Source of the DNA: Thermococcus sp. SY098 | GTDB taxonomy: Archaea; Methanobacteriota_B; Thermococci; Thermococcales; Thermococcaceae | Reading direction: 5' to 3' | Length of the DNA stretch: 64,000 bases | NCBI RefSeq assembly: GCF_035621495.1 | Contig: NZ_CP141821.1 | Coordinates: 1,764,760-1,828,759, forward strand | Shown here: positions 1 to 20,939 of the stretch, in pieces | Layout: every line of letters begins with the position of its first letter | Position numbering within the stretch: the first letter of the stretch is position 1 | The notes under the pieces: model-generated | The model's database searches: none | Told to the model about the DNA's origin: nothing | The model's input: only the letters and a program-made list of their open reading frames with translations | Position numbers and translations under genes: made by a program

Positions 1-376
1 TGAGAAGTGGAAGCAGCTCATGGAAGGAGCAATAAGACTATACAAAGAGGCTTATGAAAACGGTGTTCATCAAGAAGATGCCCGCTATATTCTTCCTCAG
101 GCAGTTAGGACTAAAATTGTCGTAACCATGAATCTTAGGGAACTTAAGCACTTCTTTGGTCTCAGAACATGTGAAAGGGCTCAGTGGGAGATAAATTATG
201 TTGCATGGAAAATGTTGGAGGAGATTTCAAAAGTTGAAGAATTACGACCCATAATCAAATGGGCAAAGTTAGGACCAAGGTGTATTCAGCTTGGATACTG
301 TCCAGAGCGGGAGCTGATGCCGGAAGGCTGTCTTAAGAGAACAAGAGAGAAGTGGATGGAAATAGCAGAGGGCTGA
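1..376 (+). CDS. thyX: FAD-dependent thymidylate synthase ThyX, C-terminal part (cut by window edge)
   Basis: The reading frame is open from base 2 and the start lies outside the window. ThyX makes dTMP from dUMP using methylene-tetrahydrofolate and FAD. The visible 125 or so residues match the family's C-terminal half: a helix with [17 protein letters not shown], then [15 protein letters not shown], which carries nucleotide-binding residues of the tetramer. The RHRxxS signature would be upstream and cannot be checked. The gene ends normally with TGA, and a hairpin/T-tract follows, so it is probably the last gene of its unit. Confidence 0.93.
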
Positions 377-432
377 TGGGAGTTTTGAGTTCATGAGGGT
401 GAGATCATTATAGAGCAAGTAACGGTAAAGTA

Positions 433-490
433 AAAATCCTTCCCTGATTGGCAGGATTTTCATATTAATTTTGATTTTTTGTCTTTTTTT
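433..490 (+). terminator. Hairpin plus T-tract terminator behind thyX
   Basis: AAAATCCT (433-440) pairs perfectly with AGGATTTT (453-460) across a 12-nt loop, and T-rich DNA follows, including runs of six and seven T near 473-490. Archaeal termination mainly needs the U-tract; the hairpin may protect the transcript end. Confidence 0.55.
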
Positions 491-503
491 AGAAGAATTC
501 TTG

Positions 504-518
504 GGAAAATTATATAAA
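504..518 (+). promoter_or_regulatory. TATA promoter of the first DUF257 gene
   Basis: A purine-rich BRE-like stretch (GGGAAAA) precedes TTATATAAA at 510-518. The usual spacing puts transcription start near 540. This lies downstream of the most upstream GTG (531) and argues for the TTG start at 552. Confidence 0.6.
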
Positions 519-551
519 CGTCAATACTGAGTGCAGTATGGTGAACATAAA

Positions 552-1199
552 TTGAAATTAGAAAAATTTTTTGAGAGCCTCAAAGCTGGCGAGACAGTTC
601 TTATTGAGCATGATTCCAAATCTGTTCCAGTTCATTCATTTTACTCATTGATCAAATGCGCGGGAAACATGAGGGTTCTTGTTGACGACTTCCTGGACAC
701 GCTGTATATCTATAAGGTGCATCTTGAGCTTTCTGGAACTGATACCTCGAAATTTGAGGATCTGCAGGTTATTAAAATTGGAGGAGTGAAAAGTGTTGGA
801 AAGATCGTGGGAAAAATTAGCTCCCGCGGAGGTGTTATACTGAGGAGAGAATACCAAACGATCTACGAGAATGCCATTGATGATGGGTCTCTGGTCATGA
901 ATCCAGTTTTGGGAATAGAAAAGCTCCTCATCTTGGGATCCTCAAGACTTGAAGTCTTAGAGACCTTGGCAGAAATCTCTTCCAGGCTTGGAGACAAAAG
1001 GAGAATCGCAGTGTATTTCGTTGACAAATCTGTTTTGAAAACTGGAGAGTTCAACCCACTCCCGATCATGGAATTCCTTTCAACAACAGTCGTTAATGTG
1101 GAAAAGAGAGGGAGGGTATACACTTTTGAGGTCTTGAAGTCAATAAACCCCGAGTTGGATGGGAAGACCTACAGCTATGATCTTGACGTTGTAGAATGA
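552..1199 (+). CDS. DUF257 family protein (function unknown)
   Basis: This protein of about 215 residues belongs to the Thermococcales-restricted DUF257 family. It shares ESLKxGETVLI, a VDDxLDxLYxxKxHLE block, VIKxGGxxxVGxxxxxI and VLGIEKLL with the second copy in this window (16816-17493). The start chosen is TTG at 552 because GGTGA lies seven bases upstream and the TATA box predicts a transcript start near 540. A GTG at 531 would add seven residues but would probably not be transcribed. No signal peptide or catalytic motif is visible. The 3' end overlaps the convergent HIT gene by 25 nt. Confidence 0.8.
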   Translation: MKLEKFFESLKAGETVLIEHDSKSVPVHSFYSLIKCAGNMRVLVDDFLDTLYIYKVHLELSGTDTSKFEDLQVIKIGGVKSVGKIVGKISSRGGVILRREYQTIYENAIDDGSLVMNPVLGIEKLLILGSSRLEVLETLAEISSRLGDKRRIAVYFVDKSVLKTGEFNPLPIMEFLSTTVVNVEKRGRVYTFEVLKSINPELDGKTYSYDLDVVE

Positions 1200-1693
1200 T
1201 GTTCCTCACTTAAAACTTCTTCGAGAGCCTTTTTCAGCTCTTTGTAGCTCTCTTCTATTGCCTGCGGAATTACTTTTACATCGGCTAAGACTGGCATGAA
1301 GTTTGTATCCCCGTTCCATCTCGGAACGATGTGAAGATGAACATGGTCATCTATACCAGCTCCAGCAACTCTGCCTAAGTTAACACCCATGTTAAACCCA
1401 TCAGGATTCATTGCCCTCTTTAGGGCTTTTATCATCAGTTGAGAAAGCTTCATTATTTCCAAAAGCTCATCATCGGTTAACTCTTCCCACTTTCCAACAT
1501 GTCTATAGGGGGCAATCATGACATGACCAGGATTATACGGATAATTGTTCATGATTATAAATGCATATTTTCCTCTGTACAGAATTAATCTCTCCTCATC
1601 CCTGTTCTCCTTTGGAAAGTCGCAGAAAATGCATCCATTATGCTTTGGAGATCTTATGTATCTAATTCTCCACGGTGCCCATATGATTTTCAA
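1175..1693 (-). CDS. HIT family nucleotide hydrolase/transferase
   Basis: This 172-residue cytosolic protein has the histidine triad as HVHLHIVPRW near residue 117; the middle His is the nucleophile attacking a nucleotide alpha-phosphate. N-terminal IFCDF and NNYPYNPGHVMIAPYRHV are typical of Ap4A hydrolase/phosphorylase-like HIT proteins. It probably splits dinucleoside polyphosphates or nucleoside phosphoramidates; the substrate cannot be read from sequence. Start is TTG behind GGAGGTGAGAGG. Its promoter region is shared divergently with apgM. Confidence 0.88.
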   Translation of the reverse strand: MKIIWAPWRIRYIRSPKHNGCIFCDFPKENRDEERLILYRGKYAFIIMNNYPYNPGHVMIAPYRHVGKWEELTDDELLEIMKLSQLMIKALKRAMNPDGFNMGVNLGRVAGAGIDDHVHLHIVPRWNGDTNFMPVLADVKVIPQAIEESYKELKKALEEVLSEEHHSTTSRS

Positions 1694-1796
1694 CCTCTCA
1701 CCTCCATGAGAGGCAACGCTGATGAATTAAAAAGCTTTTTCCCAGAAATCTTTAAGAAATCTCATTCTAAACTTGGAGCAAAGTGAGGTGATTGAA

Positions 1797-3029
1797 ATGA
1801 AGAGGAAAGGAATCTTGATTATCATAGATGGTCTTGGAGACAGACCCATAAAGGAATTTGGCGGAAAAACGCCATTGGAATATGCAAACACACCAAACCT
1901 TGATAAGCTTGCTAAAATAGGGATCCTTGGACTGCAGGATCCGATAAAACCCGGACAGCCGGCAGGAAGCGACACAGCTCATCTCTCAATCTTTGGATAC
2001 AATCCCTATAAAACCTACAGGGGAAGAGGGTTTTTTGAGGCATTAGGCGTTGGTTTGGACTTGGATAAAGATGATTTAGCTTTCAGGGTGAACTTTGCAA
2101 CCATTAAAAATGGAATAATTGTTGACAGAAGGGCAGGAAGGATTTCAACTGAGGAAGCTCACGAGCTCGCAAAGGCGATTCAAGAAAACGTTAGGCTTCC
2201 AGTTGAGTTCATATTCAAGGGCGCAACTGGACACAGGACAGTCTTGGTGCTTAAAGGGATGGCCGAAGGTTACAGAGTCGGTGAGAATGATCCGCATGAG
2301 GCAGGTAAACCGCCACACAAATTCACATATGAGGATGAAGAGAGCAGGAAAGTGGCTGAGATTCTTGAGGAGTTTGTTCAAAAAGCTCATGAGGTTCTTG
2401 AAAACCATCCAGTCAACGAGAAGAGAAGAAGAGAAGGCAAGCCTGTTGCCAATTATCTTCTCATTAGAGGAGCTGGGACCTATCCAGATATTCCCATGAA
2501 GTTCACTGAACAGTGGAAGGTGAAAGCTGCCGCTGTCCTTGCCACTGCTCTGGTTAAAGGTGTTGCAAGGGCTATTGGCTTTGATGTGTTCACACCTGAA
2601 GGAGCCACTGGTGAGTATAATACTGACGAAATGGCAAAGGCTAAAGCGGCTGTTGAACTGTTAAGGGATTATGATTTTGTATTTGTTCATTTCAAACCTA
2701 CAGATGCTGCAGGGCACGACAACAAGCCAAAGCTCAAGGCAGAGATGATTGAGAAGGCTGACAGAATGATCGGCTACATTATCGAGAACATCGACTTGGA
2801 AAGGACAGTTATAGCTGTGACTGGTGACCACTCAACCCCATGTGAGGTCATGAACCACAGCGGCGATCCGGTACCTCTTTTGATAGCCGGGGGAGGTGTA
2901 AGGACGGACTATACAGAGAGCTTTGGAGAAAGGGAGTGCATGCGCGGCGGCATTGGAAGGGTCAAAGGACATGACATAGTTCCAATGATGATGGATCTGA
3001 TGGGAAGGACAGAGAAGTTTGGGGCGTAA
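1797..3029 (+). CDS. apgM: 2,3-bisphosphoglycerate-independent phosphoglycerate mutase (archaeal type)
   Basis: The enzyme interconverts 3- and 2-phosphoglycerate in glycolysis and gluconeogenesis. At 410 residues it has the archaeal ApgM length. Alkaline phosphatase superfamily metal motifs are seen: IIDGLGDRP near residue 10, GSDTAHLSIFGYNP (nucleophile Ser) near 60, DAAGHDNKPK near 305 and TGDHSTPCEVMNHSGDPVP near 345. ATG 1797 follows GAGGTGA; a non-ATG start eight codons upstream lacks such a site. A TATA-like TTTAAGA lies near 1750. It stands alone on its strand, converging on rpl10e. Confidence 0.95.
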   Translation: MKRKGILIIIDGLGDRPIKEFGGKTPLEYANTPNLDKLAKIGILGLQDPIKPGQPAGSDTAHLSIFGYNPYKTYRGRGFFEALGVGLDLDKDDLAFRVNFATIKNGIIVDRRAGRISTEEAHELAKAIQENVRLPVEFIFKGATGHRTVLVLKGMAEGYRVGENDPHEAGKPPHKFTYEDEESRKVAEILEEFVQKAHEVLENHPVNEKRRREGKPVANYLLIRGAGTYPDIPMKFTEQWKVKAAAVLATALVKGVARAIGFDVFTPEGATGEYNTDEMAKAKAAVELLRDYDFVFVHFKPTDAAGHDNKPKLKAEMIEKADRMIGYIIENIDLERTVIAVTGDHSTPCEVMNHSGDPVPLLIAGGGVRTDYTESFGERECMRGGIGRVKGHDIVPMMMDLMGRTEKFGA

Positions 3030-3165
3030 TTTGATTTTTCTTTGCTTCCCTATATTTTAATCTCACTTGAGCTTTTCGGACCCTCTTCAGAGCTCTGGTA
3101 TAAAGTGGTCATGACATCTGGGGAGTGGCTTTCTTTAAGAACTAATAGGGAGAAAAGAAAAGATA

Positions 3166-3708
3166 TCACATGGTTGAGAGAATCTTTGTCGTGATATCGT
3201 TTCCCTGCTTATCGTAAATTCTGTAGTAGCACTTGCATGGGAACTTCATTGCTGCCCTCCTCATTGCTTCAAGGGCAAACTTGAGGTGCTGTCTGTTAAC
3301 CCTAACTGTCACTATCTTCTGGTCTCTCTTAAGCCTTGCAGCTAATCCAATTGGCTTTCCAAATGGTCTCCTCATACCGTTTCCGTAACGGTCTGCCTTT
3401 CTTCCGGTAGCCATCGGGTTCTCTCTGAGGACTTGGAACGGATAAACCCTGATCTTGAAGTGGTAGTTGCTCCTACCGACATTTTTCTGGAGGTATCTGT
3501 TCACCTGAATTCTCACTGCTTCAAGGGCGTTCTGTCTTATCTGGACAGGCTCAGCTGTGTGCAAACTAACCTCGAACTCAAAATCTCCAGCTGGATTTCC
3601 CATGTCGAAGATTGTGATTTTTGGACCTGGGGCACCTCTTATGTACTCTCTCCTTGTGTAAGCCGGTTTGTCAACGTATCTGTCAATCTTGGCTGGTCTC
3701 AAAGCCAT
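3166..3708 (-). CDS. rpl10e: 50S ribosomal protein L10e (uL16)
   Basis: This 180-residue protein begins [11 protein letters not shown] and has the L10e/L16 core with [18 protein letters not shown] and the FPCKCYY region near the end. uL16 lies near the A site and central protuberance of the large subunit. It is encoded alone, away from the main ribosomal operon, as is usual in this order. GGAGGTGAGTTGA precedes the ATG, and two TATA candidates lie upstream. Confidence 0.97.
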
Positions 3709-3756
3709 TCAACTCACCTCCATAATGAGCGTAACCTAAACTTAGGAAATCTACTC

Positions 3757-3809
3757 AGCTTATAAAAGTTTTGGAGTGCAGAGTTTTCAGGCTGCTCAAT
3801 CTATATAAA
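3757..3809 (-). promoter_or_regulatory. Two tandem candidate promoters of rpl10e
   Basis: Read on the minus strand, TTTATATAG (3801-3809) and CTTTTATAAG (3757-3766) each follow a purine-rich BRE-like stretch. They predict leaders of about 70 and 25 nt. A 12-bp palindrome, CCTAAACTTAGG (3735-3746), falls at the predicted start of the proximal promoter. Confidence 0.5.
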
Positions 3810-3829
3810 TTTTTTGCAAACGAAACGTG

Positions 3830-4993
3830 CTACCTCTTGCCATTTAGCATCATAGCAATCCCGAACAGCAGAAGTGACACGGGAGCAAATATCAGCAGTG
3901 CAGCTTTTAAAACAATCCCCAATATTGCAACTTCACCTAAGGAATAGGCAAGTCCAAAGACCAACTGTCCAGCAGTTGTGGATATATTCCTAACAGCGTT
4001 TATTCCTCCAATAGCAGCTGAGGCTCTCTTTGCTGATGCTAATAAACTCCTTGAGATTGGTCTGAATGTTTGAGCGGCAAATATTGCCATTAAAATTCCA
4101 AGGAATACAGTAACCGGATTTTTGATCGCTGCTAAAATCGGTGACACCCCAGCCAGAATTGATACAGTTATGATGACTTTTCTCTCATTGCCTAAATCAG
4201 CAAACTTTGAAGGAATGTACGCCAAAAGTGTCGCTATGAAACCTATGAGTCCAATTAGCGTTGCTGCAGTTCCTCTATCCAAATTTAGCGTTTCGGCAAC
4301 ATAGACATAGGTTATCTCACCAGAGGTGAACGCTACGAGGAATGAAATCAAAGCAGATAGGATTAAAATTTTCTTTGCATCCACTGGAGCTTCGCCTTCT
4401 TTTGTGTCTTTTTCTCTTTTGGGGACTATCTTTTCGTAGAGGAGCCAGTATGAGAGCAACATGCAGAGGGCTGTCAGGAAAAAGAAAAACGATGCAAGGT
4501 ACATCTGTCCTTTTAATCCAAACTCTTGAGTTAGAGCGTAAGTGTAGTTGCCCAAAAGCCCGGCGAAGTTTCCGAAGATAAAGTACAAAGCTGTGACCCT
4601 GCTTCTGATCTCTTTGGGAGATGAAACAGCAATAACAAACTGGGCAATCGGCCATGCAATACCGTTCAGAAAGCCGTTCATGAGCTTGATTCCAACAACA
4701 TGGATCCATGAAGATGTGAATGGATACAGATTGACAGCCAGGGCATTGCCAGTCATTGCAAGTGCACCAAGGTATACCAGGCTTTTCCTTTTCTCTAAGA
4801 GTAAACCGCTAAAAAGCGCAGAGAGGGATCGGGCTAAAATAAAAGAAGCCGAAATCACAGAGATGTTCACCATTGAGGCTTTAAGAATATCTCTGGTATA
4901 GAATGCAACGGCAGGGACCGCTAATCTAAAAGCCAGAGTTCCGGTGAAAGCCGATGCAATGAGAAGTGCTATTCCAAGGTAATGTTGTCTCAT
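3830..4993 (-). CDS. Major facilitator superfamily transporter
   Basis: This 387-residue protein has about twelve hydrophobic segments in two halves of six, separated by a charged loop with YEKIVPKREKDTKEGE near residue 200. That is a plain MFS layout. The first loop has a basic motif near LLEKRKSLVYLG, like the family's GxLaDrxGrr signature. Substrate is unknown; small-molecule export is a reasonable guess. ATG 4993 follows GTGAT. A perfect inverted repeat sits in its 5' leader, which suggests local repression. Confidence 0.85.
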   Translation of the reverse strand: MRQHYLGIALLIASAFTGTLAFRLAVPAVAFYTRDILKASMVNISVISASFILARSLSALFSGLLLEKRKSLVYLGALAMTGNALAVNLYPFTSSWIHVVGIKLMNGFLNGIAWPIAQFVIAVSSPKEIRSRVTALYFIFGNFAGLLGNYTYALTQEFGLKGQMYLASFFFFLTALCMLLSYWLLYEKIVPKREKDTKEGEAPVDAKKILILSALISFLVAFTSGEITYVYVAETLNLDRGTAATLIGLIGFIATLLAYIPSKFADLGNERKVIITVSILAGVSPILAAIKNPVTVFLGILMAIFAAQTFRPISRSLLASAKRASAAIGGINAVRNISTTAGQLVFGLAYSLGEVAILGIVLKAALLIFAPVSLLLFGIAMMLNGKR

Positions 4994-5001
4994 TTTTATC
5001 A

Positions 5002-5015
5002 CAGTTAAATAACTG
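5002..5015. promoter_or_regulatory. Inverted repeat in the leader of the MFS gene, candidate operator
   Basis: CAGTTA-AA-TAACTG is a perfect 6-2-6 inverted repeat 9 to 22 bases upstream of the MFS start, near its predicted transcription start. A further TAACTG lies at 5037-5042, upstream of the TATA-like element. A repressor bound here could block the MFS promoter and perhaps the divergent one. Confidence 0.4.
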
Positions 5016-5081
5016 CAGAGTTAGACTTAAAATTATTAACTGTTGAAATCTATAACGTCTTAATGATTTGAGGTGACGGAA

Positions 5082-5771
5082 ATGAGTATTCTTTTGATGC
5101 TAGTGGGGATACTCCTATTGAGCTTAGGTTTTATTATTGCTTATTCCCTTATTAGTCCAGTCTCTATTTTTGGAGACAAACCAACATTTATTCTTAGAAT
5201 GGTATCCTCTGGAGACATGTTGTTATTTGGGGTATTCATCTTAATACCTCAAATTTTAGTTTCTCTTGCGTATGCAATTATATACTATAATCTCAAAATT
5301 CTTGGTAACGTTCCATTTGAAAAATACTTATTTTTTAGCATAACAATGTTATTCTCTCCCCAGTATATTTCCTCTTACTCAATTATTGTTATCAGTGAAA
5401 TTTTTGTGGGATATCTTCTGATGATCGTATATATAGGGATTATTTTAAATTTGATAACACTCTACTATTGGTATCCAACAATAACTCTCCAAATCGGTGG
5501 CATTGAGAATTTAAAGGTATATCAATATAGAACGATTCATCTTTTACTTAAAAATGAAACAAAGAACTTTGCAGTAGATGTTCAGGTGTTTATAGTGTTT
5601 CCGGAAAGTATTGAAATTCGGAGCTATTCTAGTATGCTAAAATGTCTAAGAAAAAATGTTCTTATTAGTGAAAAATTCTTGCTTTATCCTCATTCTAATG
5701 AGGAGTTATTAATTTCTATTAAACCTCTAAAGAAAGGAAAATCCTATATATATAGAATTCTGGGAAGGTAA
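5082..5771 (+). CDS. Membrane protein with C-terminal beta-rich domain, unknown
   Basis: About 229 residues. The first 130 or so are very hydrophobic, with about four membrane segments (near residues 4-26, 45-72, 80-105 and 108-130). The remaining 100 alternate hydrophobic and polar residues like a beta-sandwich, with IHLLLKNETKNFAVDVQVFI and SNEELLISIKPLKKGKSY resembling Ig-like/CARDB repeats. No enzyme motif is seen. ATG 5082 follows GAGGTGA. Base composition is clearly more AT-rich than the flanks, with many ATA and TTA codons. The toroid protein downstream shares this composition, so the pair may work together. Confidence 0.7.
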   Translation: MSILLMLVGILLLSLGFIIAYSLISPVSIFGDKPTFILRMVSSGDMLLFGVFILIPQILVSLAYAIIYYNLKILGNVPFEKYLFFSITMLFSPQYISSYSIIVISEIFVGYLLMIVYIGIILNLITLYYWYPTITLQIGGIENLKVYQYRTIHLLLKNETKNFAVDVQVFIVFPESIEIRSYSSMLKCLRKNVLISEKFLLYPHSNEELLISIKPLKKGKSYIYRILGR

Positions 5772-5825
5772 TTCTATCAAAAGAATACTCCATAAAAAAA
5801 TCATTATAACTTAATATAATAACCA

Positions 5826-5838
5826 AAACATTTATAAC
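5826..5838 (+). promoter_or_regulatory. TATA promoter of the toroid-protein gene
   Basis: AAACA precedes TTTATAAC at 5831-5838. Usual spacing puts transcription start near 5861, three bases before ATG 5864, so the message would be essentially leaderless. The gene therefore can be expressed separately from the membrane protein before it. Confidence 0.5.
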
Positions 5839-5863
5839 TCTCCAAATGGTAAATATTAATACT

Positions 5864-6910
5864 ATGGCTGAGGCTAATATTCCTGAAAATTTCGAAATTC
5901 TAAAAAGACTATTATTAACCCACCTTAATAATTCTATTGACAAAGGAATTAACTGGTTGTTGTCTATAAGGGATTCAAGAACCTATGGATGGGGGAGGGT
6001 GCCATCATTACTCCCTGATCCATTTTCAACAGCAGATTCTTTACTAGTGTTAGCAGCAGCTGACGCTTTACCAAGTGACTATATTCAATCAATTGAATAT
6101 ATTTACAAGACAGCCATTATTACTCCTGATTATATATATTGGCCCAGATACTCCCCGCAGACGGATAGTGCTATTCCTAGTCCTGTTCACACTGCTGTAG
6201 TAATTTATGACTTAATTATGACTGGGGAAGATCCTAAAAGTGATTTAATCCAAAGGTGTATTCAATGGTTGATAGATGTTAGGGATTCCAAAACTCACGG
6301 ATGGAAATGGGTAATAACAGAGGGTTACCCCAGCCCTCTAGCTACTGTTTTTGTTTTAATGGCATTAAGAGTTGCAGGAGTTTCACTTAGTGAAATTGAA
6401 GGATCTGTTGAGTTTGTTTTTAACAACATAAATCCTGATTTTGGATGGGGTTATGAAAATGGGGGAATTAGTAATCCCGGAGAGACGGCATTTATACTAA
6501 CTGGATTGAGTGAGTTTTTTGGTACTTACCTCATTAATAGCAAGGAGGATATATTAAACAATTCCATTTTGTGGTTAATGTCTCAGCAACAATCAAATGG
6601 ATCATTTTTGGACATAGGTAGGTCTTATAGAGTAACTAGGAATACAAGTTGGTCGATAATAACTTTTCTTCTTTATGGTGCTAATCCATTTAGTGAACAA
6701 GTGTTGTCACCAATTTCCTGGTTACTGGAAACTCAGGAAAAAATTGGTTATTGGTCTAGTGATAATAAATATTCACTTGCACCTTCAGTTAGAGATACTC
6801 ACGATGCGTTATTGGCATTAATAACCTTCAAAAAGGTAGTAGAATATTACAACAAAAATAAAAATACTAAAAAATGGAAGTTCTCTGAGGCTATTCAACA
6901 TGCTTTGTAG
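5864..6910 (+). CDS. Prenyltransferase/squalene-cyclase-like alpha/alpha-toroid repeat protein
   Basis: A protein of 348 residues made of about five repeats of one pattern: an Ile/Trp-Leu helix (INWLLSIRDS, IQWLIDVRDS, ILWLMSQQQS, ISWLLETQEK), a Gly/Trp turn (YGWGR, HGWKW, FGWGY, NGSF, GYWSS), then a helix with T/S-A..L.AL. This is the toroid fold of prenyltransferase beta subunits and squalene/hopene cyclases. No DxDD cyclase motif or zinc set is evident, so catalysis is doubtful; binding or scaffolding is possible. No signal peptide. The start follows the TATA spacing; ATG 5846 is an alternative. AT-rich like its partner upstream. Confidence 0.75.
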   Translation: MAEANIPENFEILKRLLLTHLNNSIDKGINWLLSIRDSRTYGWGRVPSLLPDPFSTADSLLVLAAADALPSDYIQSIEYIYKTAIITPDYIYWPRYSPQTDSAIPSPVHTAVVIYDLIMTGEDPKSDLIQRCIQWLIDVRDSKTHGWKWVITEGYPSPLATVFVLMALRVAGVSLSEIEGSVEFVFNNINPDFGWGYENGGISNPGETAFILTGLSEFFGTYLINSKEDILNNSILWLMSQQQSNGSFLDIGRSYRVTRNTSWSIITFLLYGANPFSEQVLSPISWLLETQEKIGYWSSDNKYSLAPSVRDTHDALLALITFKKVVEYYNKNKNTKKWKFSEAIQHAL

Positions 6911-7019
6911 ACTTGATTTTTTTGGAGAGATATTAACTAGGTAGTAAGTAATATAAATCCTATCGGAGACTCATTGATGGGAGAATACTATGTCAGTTCC
7001 AATAGATGAGGTGGTGTTT

Positions 7020-8171
7020 ATGCAGATGCAGTTTGAGGATGCTTACAAGGAAGTTTATGAGATCGTTAAGCCGAGATACAAGCTCTTCACAGCTGGTCCA
7101 GTTGCATGTTTCCCTGAGGTTCTTGAGATAATGAAAGTTCAGATGTTCAGCCACAGAGCAAAGGAATATAAGGTAATCCACATGGACACCCTTGAAAGGC
7201 TTAAAAAATTCTTAGAAGCTGAAAACGGAGAAATAATTCTCTTTCCAAGTTCTGGAACCGGGTTTATGGAATCTGCTGTTAGGAACACAGTTCCAAGGGG
7301 AGGAAAGGTTTTAGTTACCATAATTGGCGCATTTGGAAAGCGCTTTAAGGAAGTTGTTGAGTCGAATGGGAGAAAAGCTGTTGTCCTTGAGTATGAGCCC
7401 GGAAAGGCTGTGAAGCCAGAGGATCTCGATGATGCATTAAGAAAAAACCCTGATGTTCATGCAGTAACTATAACATATAATGAAACTTCAACAGGTGTTC
7501 TCAATCCCCTTCCAGAGTTGGCCAAAGTTGTAAGCGAACATGACAAGCTTCTCTTTGTGGATGCGGTTAGTGCAATGGGAGGGGCTGATATAAAATTTGA
7601 CAAATGGGGAATCGACGTAATTTTTGGAAGCTCACAGAAAGCTTTTGGTGTTCCACCTGGTCTGGCAATCGCTGCCATTAGCCAGAGGGTCTTTGAAATC
7701 GCCGAAAAGATGCCGGAGAGAGGCTGGTACTTTGATCTGCCTCTCTATAAGAAGTTTAACTACAAGAAGCAGGGAACACCTTCAACCCCACCGATGCCTC
7801 AGGTCTTTGGTCTCAACGTTGTGTTGAGAATCATAGAGAAGATGGGCGGCAAGGAAGAGTGGCTCAAGATGTATCAGAAGAGGGCAGAGATGGTAAGGAG
7901 CGGGGTTAGGGAGATAGGTCTTGAAATCTTAGCAGAGCCGGGTTATGAAAGCCCAACAATAACTGCCGTCTTAACGCCAGAGGGCATAAAGGGCGAAGAC
8001 GTTTACAATGCAATGCGTGAAAGGGGCTTTGAACTGGCGAAGGGTTACGGTGAAGGAATTAAAGAAAAGACATTTAGGATTGGTCACATGGGATACATGA
8101 CTTTTGAAGACATTGAGGAGATGCTCCAAAACTTAAAAGAAGTTATAGAAGAACTGAAGAAGAAAGCTTAG
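7020..8171 (+). CDS. Class V aminotransferase (alanine/serine-glyoxylate type)
   Basis: This 383-residue PLP enzyme has the class V fold. LFTAGPVACFPEVL lies near the N-terminus, FPSSGTGFMESAVRN near 75 forms the cofactor phosphate site, DAVSAMGG near 180 holds the pyridine-binding Asp, and SSQKAFGVPPG near 205 holds the Schiff-base Lys. The GHMG near the end is typical. It probably transfers amino groups between alanine or serine and glyoxylate or another oxo acid. ATG 7020 follows GAGGTGGT; an ATG at 6990 lacks a ribosome-binding site. A TATA box lies at about 6950. Confidence 0.9.
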   Translation: MQMQFEDAYKEVYEIVKPRYKLFTAGPVACFPEVLEIMKVQMFSHRAKEYKVIHMDTLERLKKFLEAENGEIILFPSSGTGFMESAVRNTVPRGGKVLVTIIGAFGKRFKEVVESNGRKAVVLEYEPGKAVKPEDLDDALRKNPDVHAVTITYNETSTGVLNPLPELAKVVSEHDKLLFVDAVSAMGGADIKFDKWGIDVIFGSSQKAFGVPPGLAIAAISQRVFEIAEKMPERGWYFDLPLYKKFNYKKQGTPSTPPMPQVFGLNVVLRIIEKMGGKEEWLKMYQKRAEMVRSGVREIGLEILAEPGYESPTITAVLTPEGIKGEDVYNAMRERGFELAKGYGEGIKEKTFRIGHMGYMTFEDIEEMLQNLKEVIEELKKKA

Positions 8172-8761
8172 CGTATCTTCTCCAGTTTTATTTCTCCTCC
8201 TTCTTCAACTACTTTATAGACTGCGTTAGCTTTTCTGGCTCCCTCTTTTATATCGCGGTAGAGCTCAATTACAAGTTCAAACCTCTTTAGAGTATTATCA
8301 TCTATCTTAAGCCAGTGTTTAACTTCACTCACTATGTCCCTTGAAAGTATGAGAGAGGATATTATGAATGCATAGTCATCTATAAGCTCTTCCAGAATCA
8401 GAGGTACGTTAATTGTGTGGAGAGTGTCTATAACAACATAATCGGGATTAAGCTTTTTGATTTCCTCAATTACTTCCTTTGTTCTTGTTCTAACGCTCCT
8501 TTTATCAAATTCAGTGTTTATAATCTCAATGTTTTCTTTGAAGGGTTTGAACTCATTGTAAGCCGTTACAACTGCTATTTTCCACTCATCGGGAATTAAA
8601 TGAACCATAGCCTCAATCAGCTTTGTTTTGCCTGTTCTGCTTGCTCCAACAACTAAAATGTCGCTTTTTCTGAGAAGGGCATTTTTAATAGTCTCAAGCT
8701 GTTCATTGGTTATGTTACCATAGCGGAGCAAATCTTCTGGAGTAAAGATGTAAACTCCCAT
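8168..8761 (-). CDS. P-loop ATPase related to secretion/pilus ATPases, unknown role
   Basis: This 197-residue protein has a Walker A motif GASRTGKT near residue 44 and a Walker-B-like YVVIDTLHT near 112. The layout (N-terminal helix with NEQLETIKNALLRKSDILVVG, then P-loop) resembles the core of VirB11/PilT-family ATPases, but it is short and lacks their N-terminal domain and obvious partners. No membrane segment. ATG 8761 follows GGTGA. Its stop overlaps that of the convergent aminotransferase within TTAG. Function cannot be assigned. Confidence 0.65.
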   Translation of the reverse strand: MGVYIFTPEDLLRYGNITNEQLETIKNALLRKSDILVVGASRTGKTKLIEAMVHLIPDEWKIAVVTAYNEFKPFKENIEIINTEFDKRSVRTRTKEVIEEIKKLNPDYVVIDTLHTINVPLILEELIDDYAFIISSLILSRDIVSEVKHWLKIDDNTLKRFELVIELYRDIKEGARKANAVYKVVEEGGEIKLEKIR

Positions 8762-8842
8762 TTTTGTCACCGTAGAATACTTGGAGTCTAATTGTTATAA
8801 AATATTGGTTTGCACCACTGGGGAATAATTTCACGCCCGTAA

Positions 8843-8865
8843 GGGATTTTGGGATCATTTGGGAT
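8843..8865. repeat. Three short GGGAT direct repeats in a divergent promoter region
   Basis: GGGAT occurs at 8843, 8851 and 8861, the last two as TTTGGGAT one helical turn apart. They lie between the P-loop ATPase gene and asnA, upstream of the asnA TATA box (ATATAAAT near 8910). They could be binding sites of a regulator; nothing else is visible in this 238-nt gap except the small upstream frame. Confidence 0.3.
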
Positions 8866-8967
8866 GCCAATTCTAACCATTTTTCTTGTCAATTGTCCAA
8901 AAATTATCATATATAAATGCCAAAATTTGTTCAAATTCCAAAGTTTTTTGCATAAAAGACATAAACC

Positions 8968-8994
8968 ATGAATGCAGTGTCAAAAAATAGGTGA
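8968..8994 (+). other. Eight-codon upstream reading frame in the asnA leader
   Basis: ATG 8968 opens an 8-codon frame (MNAVSKNR) whose TGA lies inside the GGTGAT ribosome-binding site of asnA. The DNA around it (8961-8983) nearly repeats that around the true start (8994-9014), and both frames begin MNAV. Two of its codons are Asn. It may be a start-region duplication or a regulatory leader; there is no ribosome-binding site of its own. Confidence 0.4.
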
Positions 8995-8999
8995 TAAAC

Positions 9000-9914
9000 A
9001 TGAATGCTGTTCAATTAGTTAAAAGAGAGATTGCCCCAGCTATGGAAGTTCAGACCAAAGTCATTGAATATATGACAAGGTTTTTTGTTGGCAAAGGATT
9101 TAAGTGGCTGCTTCCAGTGATGCTCAGCTCGATAACTGATCCTCTCTGGCCAGATCCAGCGGCAAGTGAAGCCTTAAAGCCCCCAGAGATAGAGGCATAT
9201 GGTGGAAAGCTCAGATTAATGCATAGTATGATTTTGCACAAGCAATTGGCAGTTGCCATGGGAATAGACAAGTTGTTCATACTCTCTCCAAACATAAGGC
9301 TCGAAGGAAGGGAAGCTGACGATGGAAGGCACGCATATGAGTTCACTCAGCTCGACTTTGAAATAGCATATGCAACCATGGATGACGTCATGAGCTTAAT
9401 CGAAGAGGCAATCTCTGGGCTTTTCAAAGAGGCAAGAAAGTGGGAAATCCTTGAAGAACTGGGCAGAGAAGTTCCAAAGGCTAAGCCACCGTTTAAGCGG
9501 TTCACCTTGGAGGAAATCAAAGCTGAATTTGGTGATGAAGATAAAGCAAGTGAAGCAATGGATGAACCCTTCTGGATCACTGATATTGAGAGAGAATTCT
9601 ACGACAGGGAAGACCCAGAGAGGCCGGGACACTTCAGAAACTATGACTTGTACTTACCATGGGGTTACGGTGAGGTCTCAAGCGGCGGCGAGAGAGAGTG
9701 GGAGTACGATATAATCGTCAGGAAGATGAAGAAAGCTGGGATAAGCCTTGAGGCATTCAAACCATACTTAGAGGTTGCCAAAGCAGGATTGCTCAAGCCT
9801 ACAGCAGGGGCTGGCATAGGCATGGAGAGATTAGTGAGGTTCATCGTCGGAGCAAAGCACATAGCTGAGGTTCAGCCATTCCCGAGAATTCCGGGAATTC
9901 CGGCGATTATTTAA
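9000..9914 (+). CDS. asnA: Archaeal asparagine synthetase (AspRS-like AsnA)
   Basis: A 304-residue protein made only of a class II aminoacyl-tRNA synthetase catalytic core of the AspRS/AsnRS kind, with no anticodon-binding domain. The homologue in Pyrococcus abyssi is an ammonia- and ATP-dependent asparagine synthetase. Motif 2-like LFILSPNIRLE near 98, the FTQLDFE block near 117 and motif 3 GAGIGMERLVRFIVG near 265 are present. ATG 9000 follows GGTGATAAAC. The long leader carries a small frame echoing the gene's own start. The stop overlaps that of the convergent nitroreductase. Confidence 0.9.
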   Translation: MNAVQLVKREIAPAMEVQTKVIEYMTRFFVGKGFKWLLPVMLSSITDPLWPDPAASEALKPPEIEAYGGKLRLMHSMILHKQLAVAMGIDKLFILSPNIRLEGREADDGRHAYEFTQLDFEIAYATMDDVMSLIEEAISGLFKEARKWEILEELGREVPKAKPPFKRFTLEEIKAEFGDEDKASEAMDEPFWITDIEREFYDREDPERPGHFRNYDLYLPWGYGEVSSGGEREWEYDIIVRKMKKAGISLEAFKPYLEVAKAGLLKPTAGAGIGMERLVRFIVGAKHIAEVQPFPRIPGIPAII

Positions 9915-10444
9915 AAGTGGTTTCCAACTCTATTTAAATGCACCCTCTCCCACATTATTTCTTCTTTTCTGTGCTCTGGCTTTTCTTCAGCTGGATATCC
10001 AATACCGATTATGCAGAGGATCCTTATATGCTTAGGGATTCCCAAGAGTTCCCTGACGTAATCCTCGGCTGTCTTCTTATCATCGTGCATCCTTTCGTGT
10101 ATATGGCCCCAGCAGGCGCCTAAACCTAAGGCAGTTGCTGCCAGCTGAATGTGCTCAGCAGCTATTGAGCAGTCGTAAACCCATGCATTGCTTATCCTCT
10201 CATCCCCACAGACAACTATCGCTAAAGGTGCTGTTTCAAGGAACTCTACAGCGGATCTTGTTTTGGCGAGCTTTTTTATCAGCTCTCTATCTTTAACAAC
10301 CACAAAGTGCCAGGGTCTCCTGTTTCTTGAGCTTGGAGAATAAAAGGCAGCTTCGAGGATTTTCTCAATTAGTTCATCCGGAACTTCTTTATTTTGAAAT
10401 TTCCTGATGCTTCTTCTTTTCCTTATAACTTCAAAGAACTCCAT
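9911..10444 (-). CDS. Nitroreductase family FMN oxidoreductase
   Basis: A 177-residue flavoprotein. RKRRSIRKF near the start and SPSSRNRRPWHFVVV near 36 bind FMN phosphate, and ALGLGACWGHIHER near 113 is the family's central helix-turn. Such enzymes reduce nitro compounds, quinones or flavins with NAD(P)H; the physiological substrate is unknown. ATG 10444 follows GGTGAGCG. It lies just downstream of nfnB on the same strand, 40 nt away, so it may be co-transcribed with that redox unit. Confidence 0.88.
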   Translation of the reverse strand: MEFFEVIRKRRSIRKFQNKEVPDELIEKILEAAFYSPSSRNRRPWHFVVVKDRELIKKLAKTRSAVEFLETAPLAIVVCGDERISNAWVYDCSIAAEHIQLAATALGLGACWGHIHERMHDDKKTAEDYVRELLGIPKHIRILCIIGIGYPAEEKPEHRKEEIMWERVHLNRVGNHF

Positions 10445-10484
10445 ATCGCTCACCAAAATTATTAGAAAAGAGAGAAATTTAAAA

Positions 10485-11897
<1,413 letters not shown>

Positions 11898-12734
11898 TTA
11901 AACCATCCCCCTCTCGTGCTTCCACTTCTCAAAAGAAATCTTCTCCAAATCCTTGTAATAGTCCAGACGCTTCATCAGTTCATCCCAGTTCACTTGATGT
12001 GCATCGAACTCAGGTCCATCAACGCAGGCAAACTTTATTTCTCCCCCAACTGTTACTCTACAAGCGCCACACATACCAGTTCCGTCAACCATGATTGGAT
12101 TCAAGCTGGCAACTGTCTTTATGCCGTATGGCTTCGTGAGCTCTGCAACGAACTTCATCATTATCGTTGGTCCAACCGCATGGACGAGATCAATTTTTCT
12201 CCCCTCATCTATGAGCTTTTGAAGTGCATGAGTAGTAAATCCTTTCATCCCATAGCTTCCATCGTTTGTGGTCACTATGACCTCGTCACTAACTTGTTTC
12301 AGCTTATCTTCCCAGAACACAAGCTCCTTTGTTCTGAACCCGAGAATTGAGATGACATAATTGCCAGCCTCTTTCATGGCTTTTGCGACTGGGTAAATCT
12401 CTGCAACGCCAACTCCGCCACCTATCATTACAACCGTTCCAAACTTGTCGATGTGACTTGGCTTCCCTAAAGGACCAAGGAAGTCGAGGATGAAGTCCCC
12501 AACGTTGTATGTTCCAAGTTCGTGCGTTGTTTTTCCGACTTCCTGTGCAACTATTGTTACAGTACCCTTCTCTGGATTGGTATCGGCTATCGTTAGGGGT
12601 ATCCTTTCTCCCCTTTCGTGGAGCCTTAGTATAACAAACTGACCTGGTTTGGCTTTTTTTGCAATCCTCTCGGCTTTGATTTCGAAGAGATTAATCCCTG
12701 GAGCTAATCTTTCTTTATGCAGAATTTCAAACAT
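11898..12734 (-). CDS. nfnA: NADPH-dependent oxidoreductase small subunit (NfnA / sulfide dehydrogenase beta)
   Basis: A 278-residue ferredoxin-NADP reductase-like subunit. ERIPLTIAD near 52 is the FAD-binding turn, GGGVGVAEIYPVAKAM near 110 binds NAD(H), and MCGACRV plus FACVDGPEF near 220-245 supply the cysteines of a [2Fe-2S] cluster. It is the first gene of the nfn pair. GGTGGGG precedes the ATG. Its TATA box on the minus strand is at 12771-12777, with a SurR-like site directly upstream, so it is probably controlled with the divergent hydrogenase. Confidence 0.92.
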   Translation of the reverse strand: MFEILHKERLAPGINLFEIKAERIAKKAKPGQFVILRLHERGERIPLTIADTNPEKGTVTIVAQEVGKTTHELGTYNVGDFILDFLGPLGKPSHIDKFGTVVMIGGGVGVAEIYPVAKAMKEAGNYVISILGFRTKELVFWEDKLKQVSDEVIVTTNDGSYGMKGFTTHALQKLIDEGRKIDLVHAVGPTIMMKFVAELTKPYGIKTVASLNPIMVDGTGMCGACRVTVGGEIKFACVDGPEFDAHQVNWDELMKRLDYYKDLEKISFEKWKHERGMV

Positions 12735-12792
12735 TTAAGCCCCACCATTTTTTAATATCTGTTTTGCGAATATAAAATTCTTTTCACTATTA

Positions 12793-12809
12793 GTTGATAA
12801 CTAACCGTT
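12793..12809. promoter_or_regulatory. SurR-type binding site between nfn and the hydrogenase operon
   Basis: GTTGATAACTAACCGTT matches GTTn3AACn5GTT, the consensus of the sulfur-response regulator SurR of Pyrococcus furiosus, at every fixed position. It lies 2 bp from the BRE (12811) of the hydrogenase promoter (TATA-like CTTAAATC 12819-12826) and about 6 bp from the BRE of the nfn promoter on the other strand. This upstream placement is that of an activator site. Confidence 0.75.
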
Positions 12810-12875
12810 GCAAAAATCCTTAAATCATGTATTTGACAAATATAAACAAGAGAAGCAATCTTTCGGGTGATGATC

Positions 12876-13880
12876 TTGAGATATGTAAAGCTTCCCTCTG
12901 AGAATTTTGAGGAATTTTTCAATTCTCTCAAAAACTGGGGAACCGTTTATGCTCCAGTGAAACAAGGGAACATTTACTCTTTTAAACAAGTTAATACTTT
13001 AGAGGAAGTTTCATTGAATTACACTCGAACCATGCTTCCCCCAAAGAAGTTCTTTGTAAAGCCACGGGAGATACTTTTAAAGTTGAAAAATGGAAAATGG
13101 GAGGAAAACAGAAAAGCTGAAAAAATAGTTCTCTTTGGAGTCCACTCATGTGATATCCATGGACTTCAAATTCTTGACAGGGTATATCTTGAGGAACCCG
13201 CGGATCCCTACTACAAAGAAAGGCGGGAAAACACCATTATCATAGGGATAAGCTGCATGCCAGATGAGTACTGTTTCTGCAAGAGCTTGGGAACGCACTT
13301 TGCAATGCATGGGTTTGATCTCTTCCTGCATGAGCTTCCAGATGGCTGGCTTGTGAGAGTGGGAAGTGTAAAAGGTCATGAAATTGCATGGGCAAATGAA
13401 AGCCTTTTTGAGGAAGTTACGGAAGAGGACTTGAAGCACTTCAAAGAATTTGAAGAAAAGCGTTCTGCATCATTTAAAAAGCATCTGAACAAGGAAGGGC
13501 TTGCGGACTTGCTTGATCTTGCATTTAACAGCCCTGTTTGGAAGAAATACGAGCGTATTTGTCTCGGCTGTGGAAACTGCAACATGGTGTGTCCAACATG
13601 CAGATGTTATGAGGTCTGTGATTACTGGGTCAACGCATATGAGGCAGTGAGAGTCAGGAGATATGATTCATGCTTCATGGAAAGCCATGGACTTGTGGCA
13701 GGTGGTCACAACTTTAGACCAACGCGTTTGGATCGTTTCAGACATCGATACTACTGTAAAAGCTATTTCGATCCATCTGCGGGCTTCAACTGTGTCGGAT
13801 GCGGCAGGTGTGATGAATTCTGTCCAGCTAAGATAGAACATGTTAAGGTTCTTGACGAGGTTAGGGAGGCGTTGAAATGA
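12876..13880 (+). CDS. shyB: Cytosolic NiFe-hydrogenase (sulfhydrogenase II) beta subunit, iron-sulfur
   Basis: This subunit of about 334 residues passes electrons between the hydrogenase module and the flavin subunit. It carries CLGCGNCNMVCPTCRCYEVC near 228 and CVGCGRCDEFCPA near 311, two ferredoxin-type cluster sets. HSCDIHGL and ISCMPDEYCFC in the N-terminal half match sulfhydrogenase beta subunits. TTG 12876 is taken as start: GGGTGAT lies just upstream and the product begins MRYVKLP like its homologues. GTG 12867 and ATG 12870 are alternatives. First gene of the four-gene operon; its 3' end overlaps the next gene in ATGA. Confidence 0.9.
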   Translation: MRYVKLPSENFEEFFNSLKNWGTVYAPVKQGNIYSFKQVNTLEEVSLNYTRTMLPPKKFFVKPREILLKLKNGKWEENRKAEKIVLFGVHSCDIHGLQILDRVYLEEPADPYYKERRENTIIIGISCMPDEYCFCKSLGTHFAMHGFDLFLHELPDGWLVRVGSVKGHEIAWANESLFEEVTEEDLKHFKEFEEKRSASFKKHLNKEGLADLLDLAFNSPVWKKYERICLGCGNCNMVCPTCRCYEVCDYWVNAYEAVRVRRYDSCFMESHGLVAGGHNFRPTRLDRFRHRYYCKSYFDPSAGFNCVGCGRCDEFCPAKIEHVKVLDEVREALK

Positions 13881-14746
13881 ACCCCTTTCAAACCTATGAT
13901 GCGAGGATTTTGGAGGTAAAGGAACTTACTCCGAGGGAAAAGCTTTTCACTCTTAGATTTGTGGATCCAGAAATTAACAGGGAATTCACATACAAGCCGG
14001 GTCAGTTTGTTATAGTTGACATCCGAGGTTTTGGTGAATTCCCAATAAGTCTCTGTTCTTCCCCAACGAGGACAGGATACTTCCAGCTGTGTATAAGAAG
14101 GGTAGGAAGGATGACAAAATATATTCACAAACTTAAAGAGGGAGATATTGTGGGCATTCGGGGCCCTTATGGTAATGGCTTCCCCATGGAGGAGATGGAA
14201 GGTTCCAATCTGCTCTTGGTTGCTGGAGGTCTTGGGATGGCTCCATTGAGAAGTGTTTTGTGGTATGCCATCGACAGCGGAAAGTACGAGCAGATATACC
14301 TGTTTTATGGAACCAAAAGCTATGAAGATATCCTCTTTAGAGATGAAATAATTCATCTCCTTAAACATGGAGAAGCTATGAACTGCAGGGTAAAGCTTGC
14401 CTATGAGGTTGAGAGCCCTTCCTGCATATACCTCGAGAAGGGCTTTGCCCCCAAGGTCTGCAAAGGGGTCGTGACAGATTTGTTCAGAGGAGAGGAGTTT
14501 GATGTGGACAATACCTATGCCTTAATATGCGGACCTCCAGTGATGTATAAATTCGTGATAAGGGAGCTCTTGGACAGAAAGCTTACCCCTGGCAGGATTT
14601 ACATGACGCTTGAGAGAAGAATGAGATGCGGGATAGGCAAGTGCGGTCATTGCATTGTAGGAACCAGCACGTCAATAAAATACATCTGCAAAGATGGGCC
14701 CGTCTTTACCTACTGGGAAGCTCTTTCTACAAGGGGGTTGATTTAA
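13877..14746 (+). CDS. shyC: Sulfhydrogenase II gamma subunit, FAD/NAD(P)H
   Basis: A 289-residue ferredoxin-reductase-like subunit where NAD(P)H meets the enzyme. PISLCSSPTR near 56 is the FAD-binding turn, VAGGLGMAPLRSVLWYA near 115 binds the nucleotide, and MRCGIGKCGHC with YICKDGPVF near 252-277 binds a [2Fe-2S] cluster. It is coupled to shyB by an ATGA overlap and its stop abuts the start of shyD. It resembles NfnA in fold, so the two divergent operons use related flavin modules. Confidence 0.92.
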   Translation: MNPFQTYDARILEVKELTPREKLFTLRFVDPEINREFTYKPGQFVIVDIRGFGEFPISLCSSPTRTGYFQLCIRRVGRMTKYIHKLKEGDIVGIRGPYGNGFPMEEMEGSNLLLVAGGLGMAPLRSVLWYAIDSGKYEQIYLFYGTKSYEDILFRDEIIHLLKHGEAMNCRVKLAYEVESPSCIYLEKGFAPKVCKGVVTDLFRGEEFDVDNTYALICGPPVMYKFVIRELLDRKLTPGRIYMTLERRMRCGIGKCGHCIVGTSTSIKYICKDGPVFTYWEALSTRGLI

Positions 14747-15484
14747 ATGCTGAAGCTGGGAGTTTTTGAGCTTACCGATTGTGGAGGCTGTGCACTAAAC
14801 ATCCTGTTTCTATACGAGAAGCTGTTTGATCTGCTGGAGTTTTATGAGATTAAGGAGTTCCACATGGCATCAAGCTTTAAGGAGCATGATCACCTTGACG
14901 TTGCGATTGTCACGGGAACGGTATCATGCCAGAGGGATCTGGAGGTTTTAAGACATGCTCGCAATTATTCCAATTACTTGATCGCATTGGGAACTTGTGC
15001 AACTCATGGCTCTGTTCAGGGGGCTGTTGAAGGAAAGATCAGGGATAAGCTTGAAAAGGTGTATGGGACAAGGGCGAACACCATGAAAGCTCTTGATCCA
15101 AAGCCGGTAGTGGAATACGTAGCCGTCGACTTTGCTCTCCCCGGATGCCCTTATGATAAGATGGAGATTTATCAACTTCTCATTGATCTTGCAAAGGGTG
15201 TGGAGCCAATAAAGAAAGACTATCCAGTGTGCATTGAATGCAAGCTCAATGAATACGAATGTGTTCTGGTGAAAAAGGGACTTCCATGCTTAGGTCCAAT
15301 CACGGTGGGTGGATGCAATGCTATATGTGTTAAATCGAAACTCGGATGCATAGGGTGCAGGGGACCTTTGCCAAAGGAGGCAAACCCTGCAGGGGAGTTT
15401 GAGATACTAAGGAATCTTGGCTATGATGAGGAGTATCTGCGCAGGAAGTTCAAGACATTTGCAAGGGGTGAGCTGAGATGGTGA
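14747..15484 (+). CDS. shyD: Sulfhydrogenase II delta subunit (NiFe-hydrogenase small subunit)
   Basis: A 245-residue NiFe-hydrogenase small subunit. TDCGGCALN near 11, LGTCATHGSVQG near 82 and LPGCPYDKMEIYQ near 132 hold the proximal cluster ligands. The C-terminal half has further cysteines (CIECKLNEYEC, GGCNAICVKSKLGCIGC) for medial and distal clusters. No twin-arginine signal is present, which fits a cytosolic enzyme. It begins directly after the shyC stop and overlaps shyA by 7 nt. Confidence 0.93.
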   Translation: MLKLGVFELTDCGGCALNILFLYEKLFDLLEFYEIKEFHMASSFKEHDHLDVAIVTGTVSCQRDLEVLRHARNYSNYLIALGTCATHGSVQGAVEGKIRDKLEKVYGTRANTMKALDPKPVVEYVAVDFALPGCPYDKMEIYQLLIDLAKGVEPIKKDYPVCIECKLNEYECVLVKKGLPCLGPITVGGCNAICVKSKLGCIGCRGPLPKEANPAGEFEILRNLGYDEEYLRRKFKTFARGELRW

Positions 15485-16728: not shown

Positions 16729-16764
16729 CCTTCTATTCAAAATTTCTCTATCTATTTTTGTCAA

Positions 16765-16798
16765 ATCAAAATCATTATAAAATTTAAGAGATTTTGAT
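16765..16798. promoter_or_regulatory. Inverted repeat flanking the TATA box of the second DUF257 gene
   Basis: ATCAAAATC (16765-16773) and GATTTTGAT (16790-16798) are perfect 9-bp inverted copies separated by 16 bp that hold ATTATAAAAT, the likely TATA box. A dimer bound to both arms would cover the promoter. It might instead form the end of the hydrogenase transcript, but no long T-tract follows. Confidence 0.4.
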
Positions 16799-16815
16799 AT
16801 AATTGGGGACACATT

Positions 16816-17493: not shown

Positions 17494-17495
17494 AA

Positions 17496-17816: not shown

Positions 17817-17862
17817 CTTAAGGCTTAAAAGTCCATAAGCTTAGCTCTTTTTGGTGACAAAA

Positions 17863-18708: not shown

Positions 18709-18712
18709 TAAC

Positions 18713-20939
<2,227 letters not shown>

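Follow-up and report, generated by a model that had tools for sequence, protein, structure and literature searches.

Between a gene for an MFS transporter and one for an aminotransferase, the genome of a Thermococcales strain (G000; 2.03 Mb in a single contig) carries two neighbouring genes, here called A and T, which raise the questions of where they came from and whether they act together. The window, which is the whole stretch of 64,000 nucleotides that was analysed, belongs to this genome. An original prediction had described the two genes as an AT-rich island, perhaps acquired by horizontal transfer, with a possible role in signalling, defence or surface modification. Our analysis gives good support to the acquisition. 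As to the function, our best single guess, which we put forward tentatively, is that A and T constitute a horizontally acquired sensor/effector cassette, probably anti-viral, that replaced a divergent promoter region and in which the toroid protein T would control the membrane protein A. The features of the locus are collected in Table 1.

Table 1. Features of the insert and its flanks, in positions of the window
Feature	Position	Strand	Basis or remark
Left neighbour, MFS transporter gene	3830..5002	-	PF07690, E 3.4e-23
Left junction zone	4978..5001	.	Similarity to G087, G090, G088 and G091 stops here; to the distant G047 at 4966
Ribosome-binding-like GAGGTGA ahead of gene A	5070..5076	+	Sequence
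Gene A, 229 aa: TM0, then an S5-P-S6-like pore domain that lacks the K+ filter, then a C-terminal part in which strands are predicted	5082..5771	+	
Left arm of perfect 15-nt inverted repeat around gene A (codons 1-6)	5084..5098	+	
Gene A, aa 52-121: stretch resembling the pore domain of pentapeptide-repeat/Ion_trans_2 channels	5235..5444	+	Smith-Waterman against shuffles
Gene A, selectivity-filter position: TVGYGD stretch replaced, 5-residue gap	5355..5378	+	Alignment to L024
Gene A, C-terminal domain (about aa 143-229), no convincing relative	5508..5768	+	
Right arm of 15-nt inverted repeat around gene A	5776..5790	+	
TATA-like box TTTATAA of gene T	5831..5837	+	Sequence
Gene T, 354 aa (348 aa if ATG 5864 is the start): alpha/alpha toroid of six repeats, lacking DxDD and thioester motifs	5846..6910	+	
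Gene T, aa 266-328: final two repeats, with GYW...HDALLAL; common to G086 and Thiodictyon viperin-locus toroids	6641..6829	+	
Candidate replacement TATA box of the aminotransferase gene, AATATAAAT	6950..6958	+	Sequence; conserved promoter-like strings of relatives missing
Right neighbour, aminotransferase gene	6990..8171	+	Identity by sequence reading; conserved similarity restarts at 7007

Base composition and acquisition of the insert

Genes A and T were the lowest two in both GC and GC3 among the 73 ORFs of the window. Their GC was 0.305 and 0.354, respectively, and their GC3 0.284 and 0.271, compared with a mean GC of 0.438 (sd 0.028, minimum 0.370) and a mean GC3 of 0.438 (sd 0.048, minimum 0.333) for the 71 other ORFs, a set that was chosen mechanically (non-overlapping window ORFs of at least 100 aa) and probably includes some spurious ones. 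The AT-rich island that had been predicted was therefore confirmed. In the comparison of GC and codon use with the flanks, however, only the former differed; codon-choice likelihood was unremarkable (z of -1.2 for gene A and -0.7 for gene T) and, because it was not outlying, the deviation of both genes is attributed to base composition. Both ORFs were found where they had been placed, co-oriented on the plus strand with 74 bp between them. Besides A and T, no ORF reaching 80 aa is present in the insert, which therefore carries neither an integrase nor a transposase. At 8168-8770, on the minus strand, lies an AT-rich (0.37) gene for a 200-aa P-loop protein, shorter than secretion ATPases, with a weak VirB11/TrbB-like match (1.1e-8, 34.6 bits; cut-off 249.95).

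The MFS and aminotransferase genes were both present, at the cut-offs used, in 77 Thermococcales genomes. They were divergent and adjacent in 60 of these, and in the remaining 17 they were found far apart (12) or on separate contigs (5). The gap between the matched ends measured 85-193 bp in 58 of the 77 genomes, 1987 bp in G000 and 8696 bp in G030; about 2.0 kb in G000 stands where the relatives have a short promoter region. The closest genome compared (G087), with flanking DNA ~96% identical and flanking proteins 97% identical, has the short site. The junctions were delimited by blastn of positions 4401-7700 against five relatives, in which the similarity on the right side restarted at 7007 (7008 for G047). 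Two promoter-like strings conserved in the four genus relatives checked (4/4) are missing in G000, which implies that the native intergenic region was replaced and not merely interrupted, and therefore that both neighbours are presumably expressed from new promoters. As many relatives have the short arrangement, a gain in G000 is likelier than repeated loss.

Across the 93 other genomes of the order, no match covered the full length of either gene. Gene T gave weak matches to portions of other toroids in 20 of them (E 2.3e-5 to 9.2e-4), and gene A in three, two of these being channel proteins and one a frame broken by stops. A search of 115 genomes of the phylum added nothing for gene T at E 1e-6, and at E 1e-4 it kept just one of the two channel matches of gene A. 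With at most three candidates scored per genome, the DNA of the insert gave only matches of 25-39 nt (E 4.5e-4 or weaker), in six other genomes. Gene A had no relative in genome contigs, viral contigs, phages or plasmids, as judged by whole-protein scans, of which those of contigs work with short peptide patterns and are insensitive; in the same collections the sole match of gene T was a weak one from Paenibacillus (24.4%, E 5e-3). Together, the restriction of both genes to one strain, their GC, the lowest in the window, and the short conserved site in relatives make horizontal acquisition of A and T, as originally proposed, a well-supported reading of the sequences.

A second genome, G030, has an insert of 8.7 kb at the same site (L159, G030:C1:457900-467900), implying that the site was invaded at least two times. 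By sequence reading, this insert resembles an oligopeptide ABC transporter and beta-glycosidase cluster and not a defence locus. The site was also considered as a defence hot spot, an idea that we rejected since inserts were found only in G000 and G030 among the 60 genomes with the adjacent pair, and the one in G030 looks metabolic. Whatever the function of the pair, the locus is a clear-cut example, amenable to testing, of two genes gained recently at the expense of the promoter region of two conserved neighbours.

Gene A is enclosed by a perfect 15-nt inverted repeat (Table 1), the longest exact one in positions 5000-7005, a length that none of 200 dinucleotide shuffles reached. This repeat could be a route for the inversion of gene A, or a remnant of the insertion. 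A 14-mer, ATAACTCTCCAAAT, is present at 5481-5494, within gene A, and at 5834-5847, at the start of gene T, with a near inverted copy at 6921-6934, right after the stop codon of T; a direct repeat of this length appeared in 6 of 200 shuffles. A bacterial-type scan reported nine promoter-like sites (10.8 in shuffles) and two terminator-like sites (1.0 in shuffles). No Rfam family was detected at 4700-7300, and no tRNA at 1-20000.

These data also bear on the possibility that A and T are unrelated cargo of a mobile element or virus, that is, chance neighbours without a joint function, which we consider rather unlikely. In its favour, besides the lack of full-length matches to either gene elsewhere in the order, no second A-T pair was found in the collections searched; moreover, gene A has its own inverted repeat and T its own TATA-like box. 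Against it, the two genes are on the same strand, 74 bp apart and both AT-rich, no integrase or transposase accompanies them, and two toroids related to T (see below) have a hydrophobic C-terminus within the same protein. As to the co-occurrence of A and T elsewhere, which the original prediction had proposed as a check, no second copy of A was encountered, and the relatives of T adjoin other genes.

Gene T and its toroid relatives

The original prediction of a leaderless promoter for gene T was partly borne out: its TATA-like box agrees with a leaderless transcript that begins at the second in-frame ATG (5864) and not at the first one (5846), a choice based on the archaeal TATA-to-start spacing. 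The family PF13243 (SQHop_cyclase_C) matched T with 37 bits (cut-off 26.1; E 2.7e-9), and squalene-hopene cyclase was also its match in the PDB sequences (E 2.9e-4). The structural model of T was poor (mean pLDDT 42.7). Its top match in the fold search was again squalene-hopene cyclase (prob 1.00, E 9.8e-3), followed at lower ranks by diterpene cyclase, geranylgeranyltransferase, complement fragments and transcobalamin, among unrelated helical-repeat proteins; no match passed E 0.001. The NCBIfam hopene cyclase model gave 25.8 bits, with an enzyme cut-off of 431.1, and NF053823 (SCO2321-family membrane protein) matched weakly (4.3e-7, 29.2 bits; cut-off 300).

Six repeats were found in T, the second of them degenerate (about aa 85-99), instead of the five that had been predicted. 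The accompanying claim that the toroid lacks obvious catalytic residues was upheld for two motifs, as T contains neither the DxDD of class II terpene cyclases (no D.DD) nor the TED/complement-like thioester GC[GA]EQ (PF07678, 19.7 vs 22 bits). The beta subunit of prenyltransferases has Asp, Cys and His zinc ligands in late repeats; T has a single Cys, at position 138 within repeat 3, so that such a zinc site is unlikely (PF00432, 18.1 bits, under the cut-off of 26.5). The only hydrophobic window of T, aa 163-184, is located inside the repeats; because it has no clear TM helix and no visible signal peptide, T should be cytosolic.

T might also bind lipids or isoprenoids, or be an isoprenoid enzyme that has escaped recognition, and A would then be its partner in the membrane, the two serving to modify the envelope or to handle lipids. 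This alternative, for which the squalene-hopene cyclase matches and the weak similarity to the membrane protein model NF053823 would speak, is in our opinion improbable: T has no DxDD, the insert encodes nothing else of 80 aa or longer, A resembles a channel, and toroids of the same fold also include plain binding proteins, such as the complement fragments and transcobalamin recovered in the fold search. The surface modification role suggested in the original prediction received no specific support.

Some toroid match was obtained in 97 of 115 genomes, G000 included. One of the weak matches of T in the order was a 428-aa toroid with a hydrophobic C-terminus, encoded on a 3.4-kb, possibly misbinned contig (G086:C115) of an assembly with 61% completeness. 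Its gene neighbours a DUF1599 gene (nucleotide modification associated domain 1; Nmad1, 1.4e-53), a gene for a HIT-like protein and one for a 210-aa protein without an assigned family. The DUF1599, HIT-like, toroid-TM and 210-aa genes form a one-strand row (L009, 72-3262) reminiscent of a conflict operon, on this possibly misbinned contig. The G086 toroid matched 20 plasmid records, many of them squalene-hopene cyclases, and the best match (3e-16) was a protein of plasmid pTs485 of Candidatus Thiodictyon syntrophicum (WP_335582538.1). The latter also possesses C-terminal hydrophobic segments, and its gene is followed by an inositol-monophosphatase-family gene and then by a viperin gene (288.5 bits; NCBIfam cut-off 180). 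This toroid may be a viperin accessory, and it may be truncated, because an IS630 gene is located directly upstream. The row of toroid, inositol-monophosphatase-family and viperin genes (L080, 8899-11714) lies between IS630 and recombinase genes. As both relatives have C-terminal hydrophobic segments, a toroid and a membrane part can be joined in a single protein elsewhere, whereas here they are separate.

The likeness of T to these two toroids is concentrated at its end. A model built on the final two repeats of the G086 and Thiodictyon proteins, with T left out, scored T at 28.6 bits, compared with 11.3 for the toroid that came next and 9.1 for the highest of 1000 shuffled versions of T. The motif GYW...HD[AS]L.AL, which was spotted by eye before testing, was present in the last repeat of three of the 27 toroids compared (T, G086 and Thiodictyon), a count that is incomplete because 11 of the 26 comparison toroids run off the end of their DNA stretch. 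When full lengths are compared, these two are not the nearest toroids to T: phmmer with full-length T placed 12 other toroids above them (best 46.8 bits, vs 28.7 for each), a Paenibacillus ORF led the full-length shuffle z (14.9 vs 9.4 and 8.5), and a full-length model of the two scored a squalene-cyclase-like protein at 98.1, T at 67.6 and the next toroid at 61.0. Three genomes (G094, G113 and G114) have toroids of 338-340 aa that were discarded as kin of T, because T scored at most 7.1 bits against them and they have other neighbours (UvrA-like in G113 and G114, by sequence reading).

Viral contigs scanned with an alignment of the toroid group gave no match. Likewise, none was found for the G086 toroid in viral contigs or phages, for its 210-aa neighbour in plasmids, or for the Thiodictyon toroid in viral contigs; in plasmids, the latter retrieved only itself and one Streptomyces record.

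Gene A and its pore domain

Whole A matched no Pfam, NCBIfam or PADLOC family. PHROGs gave one match at E 0.21, and pieces of A reached E 0.15 and 3.3 in Pfam. The two weak channel matches obtained with A in the order are located in the Ion_trans_2 domain of the channel L024 and in the corresponding protein of L025. The Smith-Waterman score of A against L024, a 374-aa pentapeptide-repeat channel (PF07885, 5.5e-16) with a counterpart in L025, was 104, while 500 hydropathy-preserving shuffles averaged 36.1 (sd 6.7) and none reached that value. Eleven of the 25 segments tested, corresponding to 9 distinct places and one channel subfamily, outscored all 500 shuffles of A; the other 14, one of them not a channel, did not. 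The alignment with the channels spans S5, the pore helix and S6, and reaches 35% identity over 71 aa with L024. A was missed by the PF07885 profile, even with E values up to 10 allowed, and likewise by a model of 31 MthK-like pore domains, against which 1650 of 2000 shuffles scored as high. From these alignments, we take A for a divergent relative, devoid of the filter, of a single channel subfamily. The original prediction had included neither this likeness to a channel pore nor the replacement of the promoter region of both neighbours. The pentapeptide-repeat channels L024 and L025 adjoin protein-kinase-like and AAA+ ATPase-like genes, by sequence reading.

A four-helix membrane protein with a beta-sandwich had been predicted for A, and neither description was sustained. 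We found three hydrophobic regions (two of four windows overlap), plus a short helix in the single-sequence AlphaFold model, which is of low confidence (mean pLDDT 49.8). This model contains helices at 2-24, 35-40, 43-73, 80-91 and 100-129, followed by two strands (144-157 and 162-174) and a helix (182-192), and no beta-sandwich; its C-terminus is mostly under pLDDT 50. Leaving aside the short helix 35-40, the order of helices would fit, with low confidence, TM0-S5-pore helix-S6, with 80-91 located between the second and third hydrophobic regions. A fold search with this poor model found nothing at E 0.001. The C-terminal 95 residues had no usable relative: matches at E up to 0.1 were obtained in 12 of 114 other genomes, the best being 0.0036 over 54 aa.

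Least probable of all is that A is a non-conducting subunit that silences or retunes the cellular K+ channels, with T as its regulator in a physiological ion-homeostasis module: the pore similarity with a lost filter and the two other places in the genome that exceed the Ion_trans_2 cut-off would suit it, but these two (L075 and L074) are outside the subfamily most like A, the score of L075 was reached by 33 of 500 shuffles, L074 belongs to the MthK-like set, the model of which did not recognise A, and the strain restriction of A and T does not suggest core physiology.

A possible function and its comparison with known systems

We return to the sensor/effector cassette, our preferred reading, which we favour because T could bind the cytosolic domain of A, the acquisition is strain-restricted, and membrane-anchored kin of T are encoded beside anti-viral or nucleotide-modification genes. 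A would conserve a K+-channel pore fold (S5, pore helix and S6) that has lost its filter, to which a helix is added at the N-terminus and a domain at the C-terminus; the latter would be cytosolic if the channel topology is kept. As T would also be cytosolic, it could bind A at this domain. A ligand, or a viral or host protein, might be bound in the cavity of the soluble toroid, and T would hold or release the cytosolic part of A. Once freed, A might oligomerise and open an unselective pore, or disturb the membrane, stopping the infected cell.

We infer a probable anti-viral function for the pair. The signalling or defence role originally predicted had indirect backing from the two related toroids with hydrophobic C-termini, found beside viperin or nucleotide-modification/HIT-like genes, but not by PADLOC, which gave 0 families for A or T at E up to 1 and likewise left the G086 toroid unmatched. 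Among the literature matches listed (titles and abstract starts), none linked a toroid to viperin, or to a channel in defence. In passages of PMC8195603, PMC7159879, PMC12839542 and PMC10853773, the word toroid refers to ATPase or NTPase rings, with no mention of squalene-cyclase-like toroids. The parts of A and T are known folds; no instance of their combination emerged from the sequence collections searched, from PADLOC or from the literature matches listed. A bolder proposal, which we consider unlikely, is that a toroid sensor and a filterless pore derived from a K+ channel form an undescribed, abortive-infection-like defence of hyperthermophilic archaea, with the viperin-adjacent membrane-anchored toroids as its single-protein versions. 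If the pair works as proposed, a toroid-controlled membrane effector would be added to archaeal immunity, the K+-channel pore fold would have been reused after the loss of its filter, and a group of toroids whose name reflects nothing but a resemblance to squalene cyclases would gain a function.

Among known systems, the CBASS effector Cap15 presumably resembles A in having N-terminal TM helices followed by a strand-bearing domain. In contrast to CBASS, however, the insert has no nucleotide cyclase, and whole A has no Pfam match. With the Thermococcales pentapeptide-repeat Ion_trans_2 channels, such as L024, A shares a similar S5-pore helix-S6 arrangement, but it lacks TVGYGD and the pentapeptide repeats, and both of its ends differ, as one more helix is present at the N-terminus and the C-terminus is of another kind. 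T, for its part, is made of alpha/alpha repeats with QW-like turns, as are the C-terminal domain of squalene-hopene cyclase (PF13243) and the prenyltransferase toroids; with respect to squalene-hopene cyclase, it is a single toroid of 354 aa, without DxDD and far under the NCBIfam enzyme cut-off. The long toroids of the Thermococcales (open frames mostly of about 580-860 aa) also contain toroid repeats, and many of them start, by sequence reading, with a signal-peptide-like stretch, whereas T is short and has none. The closest parallel in the last two repeats, with the motif GYW...HD[AS]L.AL, is that with the G086 and Thiodictyon toroids. These have hydrophobic C-termini of their own, whereas T has none and adjoins the membrane protein A, and the neighbours differ in each case: viperin and inositol-monophosphatase-family genes in Thiodictyon, DUF1599 and HIT-like genes in G086, and gene A next to T.
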